From Gammaproteobacteria bacterium RIFOXYD12_FULL_61_37 (GTDB taxonomy: Bacteria > Pseudomonadota > Gammaproteobacteria > Chromatiales > Chromatiaceae), in NCBI GenBank assembly GCA_001801995.1, contig MGZB01000001.1, positions 375,289-439,288 of the forward strand: a stretch of DNA of 64,000 bases, read 5' to 3'. Position numbers and translations under genes: made by a program. A model generated the notes under the pieces. The model saw only the letters and a list, made by a program, of their open reading frames with translations. It made no database searches and had not been told where the DNA came from. This document shows, piece by piece, positions 17,429-35,719 of the stretch (positions are counted from its first letter, which is position 1; each line of letters opens with the position of its first letter).

Positions 17429-18313
17429 TCAATGGATGTGGTCGAGTATGCCATCCAGCTCTTCCAAGCTGTTGTAGCTGATTACGAGCTTCCCTTTCCC
17501 GCCCCTTCCTTGTTGGAGTTGTATCGAGGCGCCAAGCTTCTCGCTCAGCCCCTCGATGAGGCGTTGCACATCGGGGTCAATCCGCTTTCCCTGCTGATTG
17601 TCCGGCTCCTTCGTTTCTTCGGCTTTGCTGCTCTGCAGGGTGCGAACCAGTTCTTCCGTCTCTCTCACGGACAGGCCGTCATCTACAACGCGCCTTGCCG
17701 CCTTGCTTTGATCGGTTCCCTTCAGGCCCAACAGCGCACGGGCATGTCCCATTTCAAGGACATGCTTCTCAATCATCTCCTTGACATCGTCATTGAGTTC
17801 CAGAAGTCGGAGCAGGTTTGTGACCGTCGTGCGCGACTTTCCAATCGCTTCGGCAACTTGTTGGTGGGTAAGACCAAATTCATTGAGCAGTCGATGTAAG
17901 GCACTGGCTTCTTCCACCGCATTCAGGTCTTCGCGCTGTATGTTTTCGATCAGCCCCATCGCCATGGCTGACTGGTCGTTGACCGCACGAATCACGACTG
18001 GGATGTCTTGCTTTCCCGCCAACTGCGATGCTCGCCATCGCCGCTCTCCGGCGATAAGTTCATATCGCCCCTCCTCGATTGGCCGGACAACGATGGGCTG
18101 GACCACCCCCTGAGCCTTTATCGAGTCGGCCAGTTCTTGCAGACTGGTCTGATCAAAGTCCCTTCGAGGCTGAAAGCGCCCTCGCTGAATCAAATCGACG
18201 GGAAGGTGCGCAACCTCTGCGTTGACGGTTTCGCTCTCTCCCTGCTCTTCTCCGGAGGAGCCACCCAGCAGGGCATCCAGCCCCCGGCCCAGACCACGTT
18301 TTTTCGATGACAT
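17429..18313 (-). CDS. parB: Chromosome partitioning protein ParB
   Basis: ParB binds parS sites near the origin, spreads along the DNA as a CTP-dependent clamp and works with ParA in origin segregation. The 294-residue protein starts with the family signature (Lys-Arg-Gly-Leu-Gly-Arg-Gly-Leu-Asp-Ala-Leu-Leu). The CTP-binding motif Gly-Glu-Arg-Arg-Trp-Arg is at 89-94, followed by Glu-Asn-Ile-Gln-Arg-Glu-Asp-Leu-Asn (123-131). The helix-turn-helix is at about 149-170, and a C-terminal dimerisation domain closes the protein. It follows parA by 45 bases. Two matching parS sites are present inside recF. Confidence 0.98.
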   Translation of the reverse strand: MSSKKRGLGRGLDALLGGSSGEEQGESETVNAEVAHLPVDLIQRGRFQPRRDFDQTSLQELADSIKAQGVVQPIVVRPIEEGRYELIAGERRWRASQLAGKQDIPVVIRAVNDQSAMAMGLIENIQREDLNAVEEASALHRLLNEFGLTHQQVAEAIGKSRTTVTNLLRLLELNDDVKEMIEKHVLEMGHARALLGLKGTDQSKAARRVVDDGLSVRETEELVRTLQSSKAEETKEPDNQQGKRIDPDVQRLIEGLSEKLGASIQLQQGRGGKGKLVISYNSLEELDGILDHIH

Positions 18314-18358: not shown

Positions 18359-19123
18359 CTAGGACTTGTTTCTTAACATCTCTTTTGCGAGTTCGAGATA
18401 GGCCTCGGCGCCTCGTGAATCTTTATCATACATCAAAACAGGAAGGCCATGGCTCGGTGCCTCTGCCACGCGCACATTACGCGGGATGATGGCGTGGTAA
18501 ACGCGCTCCTTGAAGTGGCGGATCAATTGGGCGGAGACATCGTTTGCCAGGTTGTTTCGAGGGTCATGCATGGTGCGCAAGATTCCCACGATTTCCAGTT
18601 CAGGGTTACGGTTTGCCCGAATTTGTTTGATGGTACTAACCAGGGCCGACAGACCTTCCAGTGCATAGTATTCGGTCTGAATCGGGATCAATACACCATC
18701 GGCCGCCACCAGCGCATTCAAGGTCAACATGTTCAGGGATGGGGGGCAATCGATGAGGATGTAGTCGTATATTCTGCGTATATCTTCCATAGCCAGACGC
18801 AGGCGACGTTCGCGCAACGCGGCGTCCATCAACCCCACCTCCGCAGCCGTCAGGTCAGCGTTGGCTGGTACGATGTCATACTTCACCTGTTCAAGATGTA
18901 TGATGGCGTCATCGAAAGTCGCTTCTCCCAGCAGCACCTCGCAGGAGGTCTTGCTCAGATTGTGCTTGTTGACTCCGGACCCCATGGTGGCGTTACCTTG
19001 GGGGTCCATATCCAGCAACAATACCTTTTCGCCCAGAAAGCCGAGCGACGCAGCCAGGTTGATGGAAGTCGTGGTCTTTCCGACCCCGCCCTTCTGATTG
19101 GCAATAGTGATCACTTGACCCAT
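18359..19123 (-). CDS. parA: Chromosome partitioning ATPase ParA (Soj)
   Basis: ParA is a deviant Walker A ATPase that binds DNA non-specifically and moves ParB-parS complexes. The 254 residues have Lys-Gly-Gly-Val-Gly-Lys-Thr-Thr at 11-18 with the signature lysine, and the later Asp-Met-Asp-Pro-Gln-Gly-Asn and Asp-Cys-Pro-Pro-Ser-Leu motifs. There is no N-terminal DNA-binding extension, as in other chromosomal ParA proteins. It lies between rsmG and parB on the same strand. Confidence 0.98.
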   Translation of the reverse strand: MGQVITIANQKGGVGKTTTSINLAASLGFLGEKVLLLDMDPQGNATMGSGVNKHNLSKTSCEVLLGEATFDDAIIHLEQVKYDIVPANADLTAAEVGLMDAALRERRLRLAMEDIRRIYDYILIDCPPSLNMLTLNALVAADGVLIPIQTEYYALEGLSALVSTIKQIRANRNPELEIVGILRTMHDPRNNLANDVSAQLIRHFKERVYHAIIPRNVRVAEAPSHGLPVLMYDKDSRGAEAYLELAKEMLRNKS

Positions 19124-29521: not shown

Positions 29522-30895
29522 ATGCATAGTCCCTTCATCGCTAATTGGAATTATTGTATTGAAAGGCTTAAAACGTCGCTAAGTCCTCAACAATTCAATA
29601 CATGGATACTGCCACTACAGGTTACATATGCCACGCAATCTATAAACCTTTTAGCACCTAATAGGTTCGTTTTGGATTGGGTTAAAAAGCATTATTTCAA
29701 TCTTATTACTTCATATCTACATGACTACTCAGGAAGTAGTGCTCCTCAAATATTTCTTGAAATCGGCACTAAGCCTAAGCTTTCGGCAGTTCCAATTCAT
29801 GGATTTGATTCTGTACTAAGTAATAATCCCCAAATCAACCAAAAAATAGACACTATTGATTTATCAATTTACACCGATTCAAACGTAAACTCTGAATTCA
29901 CCTTTGACACTTTTGTAGAGGGAAAATCGAATCAGTTGGCTAGGGCTGCTTCATTTCAAATCGGGATTAATCCTGGATCTGTCTACAACCCCATGTTCAT
30001 CTACGGTGGTGTAGGTCTCGGTAAAACTCATCTATTACACGCGATCGGTAACAAAATTCTCATCAATAACCCCCAGGCAAAAGTTAGATATCTTTATGCA
30101 AATACTTTTATTGCTGAGATGGTTCACGCCCTACAGCATAATCGAATGGATGAATTTAAACGACGCTACCGAAGCGTAAATGCTTTGTTAATTGATGATG
30201 TCCAATTTTTTGCTGGAAAGGAAAGATCGCAGGAGGAATTCTTCCATACTTTTAATGCGTTATTTGAAACTCAACAGCAAATAGTGTTGACAAGCGATCG
30301 TTATCCAAAGGAAATGAATATTGAAGAGCGGCTTAAATCGCGTTTCGGCTGGGGTCTTGTTGTACGTATTGAACCGCCAGAGCTTGAAACAAGGGTCGCC
30401 ATTCTTAAGCAAAAATCTTTACAGCTTTTTGGAATTGATCTTCCTAATGAGGTCGCATTTTTTATTGGTAAAAGGTTTTTATCCAATATTCGTGAACTTG
30501 AAGGTGCTTTAAGGCGGATTATTGCAAGTACGCGATTCACTGGGCAGCCGATTAACATTGAGACATGTAGAGAAGCGCTTCGCGATATGCTTGCTGTTCA
30601 GGATAAGCTTGTTACCATTGAAAATATTCAGAAGACTGTTGCTGAATATTTCAAAATTCGCATATCAGATCTTAATGGAAGTTCCAGAAGCAGAAATTTG
30701 GCTAGACCAAGGCAAGTTGCGATGTGTCTATCTAAGGAATTGACAAATCATAGTTTGCCTGAAATTGGCCGCGCCTTTGGAGGTCGAGATCATACTACTG
30801 TTCTATATGCGGTACGTAAGATTTCCGAACTTCGCAGCTCGGATAGTTCGATTGATGAAGACTATCTAAACCTGTTGAGAACTTTGATGGGATAG
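29522..30895 (+). CDS. dnaA: Chromosomal replication initiator DnaA
   Basis: DnaA binds DnaA boxes and opens the origin. The 457-residue protein has the N-terminal DnaB/DiaA-interaction domain (Trp-Asn-Tyr-Cys-Ile-Glu-Arg-Leu), a short linker, and the AAA+ domain with Walker A Gly-Gly-Val-Gly-Leu-Gly-Lys-Thr at 162-169 and Walker B Leu-Leu-Ile-Asp-Asp-Val. The C-terminal helix-turn-helix holds Gly-Arg-Asp-His-Thr-Thr-Val. All key residues are present. Its codons are AT-rich compared with the flanking kilobases, although the protein is conventional. Confidence 0.98.
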
Positions 30896-31085: not shown

Positions 31086-32186
31086 ATGAATATTATTACT
31101 AATAAGCATGATCTTTTAGGTGCTCTCCAGATTGTAAATGGTGTTGTTGAAAAGCGACATACTCTTCCAATTCTAACCAATATTCTGTTAGCTGTTGACA
31201 ATGGATATATGACCATAACAGGAACAGATATGGAAATTGAGATTCTGTCAGGGATAAATGTTAATGCAGACACAGATGGCTTATTTACTTTACCTGCTAG
31301 AAAACTTTTTGATATCACCCGTTTGATTGAGGAAGGGTCCCAAATTTCTTTACAGGTAGAAACAAATAATGTGTATATTAAATCTGGAAGGAGTCGTTTT
31401 TGTTTGGGTTCTCTCCCGGCTTCTGAATTTCCTGTAATTAATCCAATCGCATCGACTCTTTCATTTAAAGTAGAAGAGGGGATATTTAAAGGGTTGCTAG
31501 ATAAAACGTTATTTGCAATGGCTTTACAGGATGTTAGGTATTATTTGAATGGAATGTTGTTGGAGATACGGCCAAATTTACTACGAACTGTTGCAACTGA
31601 TGGCCACCGACTGGCTTTGTCGGATTATACGAGCCTTATCATAGACCACGATATGCATCAGGTCATATTACCGCGAAAGACTATTATTGAGTTAAATAGG
31701 CTTCTCTCTTATAAAACTGAATCAATTGGCATTGAAATTACTTCAAGTTATATCCGGTTTTACCACAGTGATTTTACATTGAGTTCTAAAATTATTGATG
31801 GACGATTCCCAGATTATGATCGCGTTATTCCAAAAAACTCAACGAAGCAGGTCAAAGTAAACAGAATTATTTTTAAACAGGCATTACAACGAGCATCTAT
31901 TCTATCTAATGAAAAATTTAGGGGCATTCGCTTATTATTCTCCCATAACCAACTTCAACTTCAGGCGCATAATCCGGAGCATGAAGTAGCTGAAGAAGAT
32001 TTAGATATCGATTATCCTTTTGATCCAATATCTATTGGGTTTAATGTTAGCTATATGATTGATGTTTTAAATATTATAGATTCTGAATTTGTGATTTTGA
32101 ATCTTAGTGATGAGAATTCTAGTGTGCTTATTCACTCCTTGGATGATGTAAGCTCACGCTATGTTGTAATGCCAATGCGGCTGTAA
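31086..32186 (+). CDS. dnaN: DNA polymerase III beta sliding clamp
   Basis: DnaN forms the ring that tethers polymerase III to DNA. The 366-residue length is standard. The three-domain pattern is visible, with Arg-His-Thr-Leu-Pro-Ile-Leu-Thr-Asn near the start, Ala-Thr-Asp-Gly-His-Arg-Leu-Ala in the middle, and the conserved C-terminal Val-Met-Pro-Met-Arg-Leu. One 60-base line at its start (31081-31140) has only 16 G or C, the lowest composition I counted in the window. Confidence 0.97.
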   Translation: MNIITNKHDLLGALQIVNGVVEKRHTLPILTNILLAVDNGYMTITGTDMEIEILSGINVNADTDGLFTLPARKLFDITRLIEEGSQISLQVETNNVYIKSGRSRFCLGSLPASEFPVINPIASTLSFKVEEGIFKGLLDKTLFAMALQDVRYYLNGMLLEIRPNLLRTVATDGHRLALSDYTSLIIDHDMHQVILPRKTIIELNRLLSYKTESIGIEITSSYIRFYHSDFTLSSKIIDGRFPDYDRVIPKNSTKQVKVNRIIFKQALQRASILSNEKFRGIRLLFSHNQLQLQAHNPEHEVAEEDLDIDYPFDPISIGFNVSYMIDVLNIIDSEFVILNLSDENSSVLIHSLDDVSSRYVVMPMRL

Positions 32187-32191
32187 ATTCG

Positions 32192-33268
32192 TTGCCCTTT
32201 TCACTTCTTCGTATTAATAATTTTAGAAACATTTCTTCTGCTGAGGTTTGCCTTTCAGAAGATCTTAATTATTTTGTTGGGGCAAATGGCTCAGGAAAAA
32301 CTTCATTTTTGGAAGCTATTTATTCCTTAGTTAGGGGCCGATCTTTTCGTACCCGTTATTTAAAACCAATGATTAAGGATGGATCTGTAGACAATACAGT
32401 AGTATTTGCGAATTGGGCTGCATATGATGGAACTTTGCACATTATAGGAGTTGAGAGAAATCTAAAATCATCAAGGGTCAGGTTAAACGGACAGGATGTT
32501 CGTAGAATATCTACCGTCAGTTCTCTAATTCCTCTTCAGTTTCTTAGCTCACAATCAGTTTCTTTTTTTACGAGTGGTCCTTCAGCTAGACGTAAGTACT
32601 TTGATTGGGGTGTGTTCCACGTGGAACAACAATTCATTCATATTTTGGAAAGATACAAACGATTGATTCAGCAAAGAAATGTAGCACTAAGAAATCATGA
32701 CAAGCAGACAATATCCGCCTTTCAGTATGGCTTGGCTGAAGCTGCTTTGGATATTGATGAATTTCGAAAAAATTATTTCGAGGCTATATCTTCTGTAGTC
32801 GCTTCCCTCTGCAAAGAATTTTCAATCTTTCCTGGCTTATCATTGGTATATGAAAAAGGCTGGAGTGAAAGAATACCATTTGAGCAAGCATTGAAAAACA
32901 AATTACCATCTGATTTATCACGTGGATATACTTCTATTGGCCCCCAATATTTCGATGTTCGTTTTTTAATTTGTAGGCAACCTGTTGAACAGGTGCTATC
33001 AGGAGGTGAACTTAAACTTCTGGTGCATTTGCTTAAAGTAGCCCAAATTTGTTTATTGAATAAAATTCAGACAATATCTACTGTTTATCTTATAGATGAT
33101 TTTTACGCCGAGCTATCCCCATTATTTAGAGTAAAAGCACAGGACTTTTTAAAATTTATTCGCTGCCAGGTTATTATTACTTCACCTGATATTTGCTTAA
33201 TACCACCAAATCATGACTGTGGTAGAACGTTCCACGTGGAACATGGTAAAATTACGTCCGTAAATTGA
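32192..33268 (+). CDS. recF: DNA recombination/repair ATPase RecF
   Basis: RecF loads RecA at gapped DNA with RecO and RecR. The 358-residue ABC-type ATPase has Walker A Gly-Ala-Asn-Gly-Ser-Gly-Lys-Thr (30-37), the signature Leu-Ser-Gly-Gly-Glu and the later Leu-Ile-Asp-Asp Walker B. The start is TTG at 32192, five bases after the dnaN stop. The coding sequence contains two parS sites that fix residues Phe-His-Val-Glu at 142-145 and 347-350. The second falls in the C-terminal tail, which is poorly conserved in the family. Confidence 0.95.
   Translation: MPFSLLRINNFRNISSAEVCLSEDLNYFVGANGSGKTSFLEAIYSLVRGRSFRTRYLKPMIKDGSVDNTVVFANWAAYDGTLHIIGVERNLKSSRVRLNGQDVRRISTVSSLIPLQFLSSQSVSFFTSGPSARRKYFDWGVFHVEQQFIHILERYKRLIQQRNVALRNHDKQTISAFQYGLAEAALDIDEFRKNYFEAISSVVASLCKEFSIFPGLSLVYEKGWSERIPFEQALKNKLPSDLSRGYTSIGPQYFDVRFLICRQPVEQVLSGGELKLLVHLLKVAQICLLNKIQTISTVYLIDDFYAELSPLFRVKAQDFLKFIRCQVIITSPDICLIPPNHDCGRTFHVEHGKITSVN
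32613..32628. promoter_or_regulatory. parS site 1 (perfect 16-base palindrome) inside recF
   Basis: TGTTCCACGTGGAACA is a perfect 16-base palindrome and matches the parS form known from pseudomonads. It lies about 3 kb from the putative origin and 13 kb from parB, and within the recF frame it encodes Phe-His-Val-Glu at 142-145. Confidence 0.9.
33228..33243. promoter_or_regulatory. parS site 2 (15 of 16) near the 3' end of recF
   Basis: CGTTCCACGTGGAACA differs from site 1 only in its first base. It ends 25 bases before the recF stop and again encodes Phe-His-Val-Glu (347-350). The two sites are 615 bases apart. Confidence 0.87.

Positions 33269-33289: not shown

Positions 33290-35719
<2,430 letters not shown>

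Follow-up and report, generated by a model that had tools for sequence, protein, structure and literature searches.

The 64,000-nucleotide stretch analysed here (the window) raises the question of why the same four residues, Phe-His-Val-Glu (FHVE), should occur twice in one RecF protein, each time spelled by a parS palindrome, and whether they are kept for the sake of the protein or of the DNA. An earlier note had described a perfect 16-base parS and a 15-of-16 copy lying 615 bases apart within recF, both in the Phe-His-Val-Glu frame, and sequence matching bears this out. Against the 16-bp reference palindrome TGTTYCACGTGRAACA, site 1 matches the consensus at 16 of 16 letters and site 2 at 15 of 16. 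The start-to-start spacing of 615 bp corresponds to 205 codons, and the Phe codons begin at 32615 and 33230. The features concerned are as follows.

32613..32628: parS site 1, TGTTCCACGTGGAACA, read as codons (..TG)TTC CAC GTG GAA(CA..), RecF residues 142-145, FHVE
33228..33243: parS site 2, CGTTCCACGTGGAACA, RecF residues 347-350, FHVE
32192..33268, + strand: recF, the gene containing both sites (TIGR00611 at 277 bits, cut-off 172; TTG start as listed)
31086..32186, + strand: dnaN, upstream neighbour of recF (TIGR00663)
33320..35719, + strand: gyrB, downstream neighbour of recF (profile search)
29522..30895, + strand: dnaA (TIGR00362), which puts the sites beside the origin
18359..19123, - strand: parA, partition ATPase (ParA/MinD-type families), immediately upstream of parB and after rsmG and mnmG
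17429..18313, - strand: parB, centromere-binding protein (TIGR00180, 204 bits; GKSR...N...GHAR kept)

The genome is available as a 57-contig, 3.47-Mb draft, and the scan for further sites that the earlier note had called for found none at up to one mismatch beyond the recF pair. At that threshold the reversed control pattern gave no match in the same genome, and allowing two mismatches added a single match, on another contig. With the close variant TGTTTCACGTGAAACA at up to three mismatches, 3 matches were observed in the window as compared to 0.17 expected from dinucleotide shuffles of the window. Codon choice in this gene would rarely produce the pair, since both sites were kept at up to one mismatch in only about 1 of 20,000 trials (0.005 %) of synonymous-codon shuffling within this recF. 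The gene is AT-rich and the codons in question are scarce (TTC for 5 of 25 Phe, CAC for 3 of 8 His and GTG for 5 of 27 Val), two of each being located at the parS sites. In an AlphaFold model of RecF, built with E. coli RecF left out of the alignment (mean pLDDT 94.7), site 1 falls where helix 130-144 ends, and site 2 is part of the last beta hairpin.

The surroundings are those of a standard origin cluster, in the order parB, parA, rsmG, mnmG, mnmE and then dnaA, dnaN, recF and gyrB, with plsC-like and glyS/glyQ genes, named by sequence resemblance only, farther out. Both sites lie less than 4 kb from dnaA and, judged by that gene, are origin-proximal, and cognate parA and parB genes are present on the chromosome after mnmG-rsmG, as is typical of chromosomal parS of ParABS type Ia. 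The residues of ParB that contact parS have been named from a Caulobacter co-crystal (PMC7383237). On alignment, the ParB encoded here keeps GKSR, N and GHAR, with no Noc-type change at the positions of R173 or G201, and so has parS-type rather than Noc-type recognition residues.

An initial set of relatives had been picked by the presence of parS and was biased, as it was chosen by the very feature under study; it was therefore replaced by samples chosen on RecF. In that initial set the sites form pairs about 600 bp apart, and the FHV frame of recF was seen in all but one (L018) of the 27 two-site loci with a readable recF. For the class sample, 185 genomes were drawn by RecF profile and 150 RecF loci from about 140 families were fetched and aligned, with a median pairwise RecF identity of 33 %. 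Additionally, loci of named genomes were found using only the N-terminal third of RecF, a stretch which excludes both sites. At up to one mismatch to TGTTYCACGTGRAACA, site 1 is present in 123 of the 150 loci, site 2 in 117 and both in 105. The spacing ranges from 600 to 669 bp and is invariably a multiple of three. In 83 of the 105 two-site genomes the recF pair constitutes the whole parS set, and 240 of the 310 parS in the 150 genomes (77 %) sit at the two RecF positions. Neither position carries a site in 15 of the 150 genomes, some of which still have ParB. The occurrence of FHVE at both sites is hence not a coincidence of this genome; the two sites share it because each is a parS translated in one and the same frame, at one of two positions fixed across the class. 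The simplest account of this double coding is that it descends from an ancestor early in the class. In one member of the genus to which the window belongs (L028, G001), RecF is only 45 % identical and both sites are kept, an instance of unusually fast RecF evolution.

Such conservation could also be expected if RecF itself needed FHVE, for its ATPase or for contacts with DNA, RecO/R or the clamp, the palindrome being a by-product of favoured codons. Codon usage speaks against this. Among sequences encoding FHV[E/K], the exact parS codons were found in 122 of 126 at site 1 and 114 of 121 at site 2, where the usage of each gene would predict 8.6 and 8.8, and the fixation is just as evident in genes below 42 % GC (36/38 and 30/34). 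When 67 conserved RecF columns were scanned blind, the strongest codon fixation fell in five, namely H, V and E of site 1 and H and V of site 2. The comparison of codons together with residues in relatives, which the earlier note had proposed, thus favours the DNA explanation at both sites. The outcome that it named as contrary, in which the residues stay and synonymous codons destroy the palindrome, is rare in the class sample (4/126 at site 1 and 7/121 at site 2) and is also seen at site 1 of three Pseudomonas species (L245, L249 and L250), where GTC and GAG break the palindrome, FHVEP is kept and site 2 is intact. These three appear to be recent losses of site 1 and may be useful for watching how the residues drift.

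The letters on either side of the four codons behave similarly. The codon before F ends in G in 128/128 sequences at site 1 and 123/124 at site 2, and the codon after E starts with C in 128/128 and 124/124, although the encoded residues vary; this constraint disappears where the parS core is lost. A RecF tree from which the site columns had been withheld requires at least 54 changes of the residue following E at site 1 and at least 42 at site 2; for the residue preceding F at site 2 the minimum is 65. The state of the site itself changed at least 16 and at least 19 times at sites 1 and 2, respectively. E and K were exchanged 16 times at site 1 and 22 times at site 2, and such repeated swaps of charge are difficult to reconcile with a need of RecF for these residues.

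What happens to the residues when the palindrome goes is equally informative. In genomes with parS, conservation of H and V equals that of the Walker A motif. Where site 1 is absent, H falls to 55 % and V to 20 %, Phe stays at 90 % and the Walker, signature and other catalytic columns remain at about 100 %, so that His-Val-Glu drifts once the site is lost, contrary to a requirement of the protein. A part of the motif nevertheless does belong to RecF. Phe142 and Phe347 are protein-level residues, since they mostly persist whether parS is there or not; E. coli RecF reads FTVE at site 2, and the three Pseudomonas mentioned above retain FHVEP at a broken site 1. As Phe at both sites and Val and Glu at site 2 can outlast the palindrome, the motif is partly protein-level. 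The proposal of the earlier note that partition constrains residues 142-145 and 347-350 therefore stands for His-Val-Glu, with its fixed codons and its drift on site loss; it does not extend to Phe at either site and holds only in part for Val and Glu of site 2.

Beyond the class, neither parS in or beside recF nor FHVE at site 1 was present in any of 40 RecF loci drawn from elsewhere in the phylum, and the site 1 motif is absent as well from the solved RecFs of Deinococcus and Caldanaerobacter, which again argues against a general need of RecF for it. Most of the genomes behind the 40 loci have parS elsewhere. At a different locus, several genomes of other classes (G364, G318, G334, G349 and others) carry TGTTTCACGTGAAACA in pairs separated by about 1.9-2.1 kb; this spacing is close to the length of mnmG, and these pairs too may have a fixed placement.

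Conversely, parS can remain where recF is gone. Five recF-less genomes were looked at, which do not represent a random draw, and four of them (G115, G188, G175 and G090) carry parS, singly or as two copies, in the gap between dnaN and gyrB, paired sites being 36-43 bp apart. In the fifth, G140 (L322), the sites are found close to the end of mnmG and within rsmG, next to parAB, which is another intragenic home. In L018 a stop codon cuts RecF before site 2, and the parS survives just beyond it, still reading VFHVEH. Taken together, these observations make it very improbable that FHVE is conserved because RecF needs it.

A different objection is that the palindromes bind some other protein or are unused relics, with partition relying on unseen degenerate sites. 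Relics do seem to last. No ParB was found in 19 named genomes (15 enterobacteria and 4 Pasteurellaceae/Gilliamella), and site 1 is present in none of them. At the site 1 position enterobacteria read CFHNEP and similar. Their site 2 still matches at 13-15 of 16 letters in many species, several of these ParB-less enterobacteria reaching 15/16, with the CACGTG core lost in nearly all; the series runs from TGTTCCGCGTGGAACA in Yersinia, Serratia and Pantoea to TGTTTACCGTGGAAAA in E. coli. We infer that these copies are relics left after the loss of ParB, and their persistence implies that the letters alone do not prove use. Erwinia sp. 198 (L191), whose relatives carry TGTTCCGCGTGGAACA, has a perfect site 2 parS and no ParB match, and this may represent either a chance reversion or an unseen reader. 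Likewise the sites of G205, which has no ParB match, are eroding; its congener G060 possesses ParB as well as both sites. Both sites are kept in Rheinheimera, Pseudoalteromonas and mostly in Pseudomonas. In Vibrio, Aeromonas, Psychromonas and most Shewanella, which have ParB, it is chiefly site 2 that is retained, often with a single mismatch. Fisher tests on the named genomes gave p values of 0.002-0.005, which, with few independent losses of ParB, carry no weight alone.

For the genome under study, the draft state also leaves some room for this objection, because a parS in a gap between the 57 contigs could be missed. Against it stand the lack of any other consensus site in the genome, the parS-reading residues retained by ParB, and the binding of the P. 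aeruginosa counterparts parS1 and parS2 by ParB in vivo, seen by ChIP-seq (PMC5098823). Paired changes of the two sites point in the same direction. In L161 (G130) both sites are TGTTTCATATGAAACA, with the core CATATG and FHMK encoded twice, and in L119 both have CATGTG, as expected if the two sites have one shared reader. Another reader, or none, is thus slightly less probable still than a requirement of RecF. In L178 a His-to-Tyr change leaves the palindrome preserved, as TGTTCTACGTAGAACA. The ParB of G130 (L268) has SRSR in its recognition helix, where most others have G[K/R]SR; co-evolution of an altered ParB specificity with the sites in G130 is suggestive only, and we do not claim it from a single case.

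The sites lie in recF, they are conserved across the class, their codons are constrained, and they decay or relocate where ParB or recF is lost. The reading we prefer, with a probability of roughly 0.93, is that the recF pair is the centromere of this chromosome and is doubly coded, selection for ParB binding having fixed residues of RecF. The two sites would serve to nucleate the ParB whose gene lies about 14 kb away; this ParB would bind each palindrome, load as a CTP clamp and spread across the dnaA-dnaN-recF-gyrB region, and ParA would then separate the newly copied origins. Binding by ParB in this organism, as well as the loading and segregation steps, are extrapolated from what is known of P. 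aeruginosa and of ParABS systems elsewhere. Since the sites are inside recF, their 16 letters are also read as protein, and selection for ParB binding would therefore fix His-Val-Glu/Lys at two places in RecF together with one letter-class in each flanking codon, so that these residues may appear conserved. It is also likely, to a lesser degree, that the centromere has lain within recF codons since early in the class, that segregation has shaped two stretches of RecF, that the sites change together when their reader changes and outlive recF, and that the copies in the E. coli family are relics of ParB loss.

This would be a clean natural case of one stretch of DNA doing two unrelated jobs over a very long time. 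Some residues of RecF are as conserved as its ATPase motifs and yet would be set by the DNA-binding protein of another pathway; as parS dictates them, they look essential when they are not. Inference of function from conservation can be misled accordingly, whether in the choice of residues for mutagenesis, the prediction of variant effects or protein models. The recF positions also offer a fixed and countable place at which to follow how centromeres are kept, retuned, moved and lost, and they bear on the origin of the ParB-less enterobacteria.

The literature searched yielded no description of either the class-wide pattern or the constraint on RecF, and subscription papers may contain an earlier mention. 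Livny et al. 2007, reportedly the main survey of parS distribution, is one place where the pattern may have been mentioned.

Intragenic parS in recF have been described before, in P. aeruginosa: parS1 and parS2 of PAO1 are located within the gene (PMC5521831). The pair described here resembles them closely: the gene is the same, and the Pseudomonas loci read here share the RecF alignment columns and the FHV[E/K] frame and carry TGTTCCACGTGGAACC and TGTTCCACGTGGAACA, the sequences reported for parS1 and parS2. ParB binding in vivo and a need in segregation have been shown for these counterparts (PMC5098823, PMC4368675), any single one of parS1-4 being enough (PMC4368675). When parS1 and parS2 were both recoded to TTtCAtGTaGAg, which is exactly synonymous for FHVE, ParB silencing was abolished in vivo and affinity was lowered in vitro (PMC4368675). 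P. aeruginosa differs in adding the strong intergenic parS3 and parS4 as well as weak sites, whereas here the recF pair is all that is found at up to one mismatch. Enterobacterial recF (E. coli, Yersinia, Serratia) is the same gene with the same neighbours, without a ParB match. With ParABS centromeres in general (B. subtilis Spo0J-parS, Caulobacter, Xanthomonas citri) the sites share the 16-bp palindrome, the proximity to the origin and the nearby parAB; in those other lineages, however, site locations vary, without double coding at fixed recF positions, the parS of X. citri lying at the 3' end of dnaN (PMC3937727). The predicted centromere pair looks functional, ordinary as parS and unusual as a constraint on a protein throughout the class.
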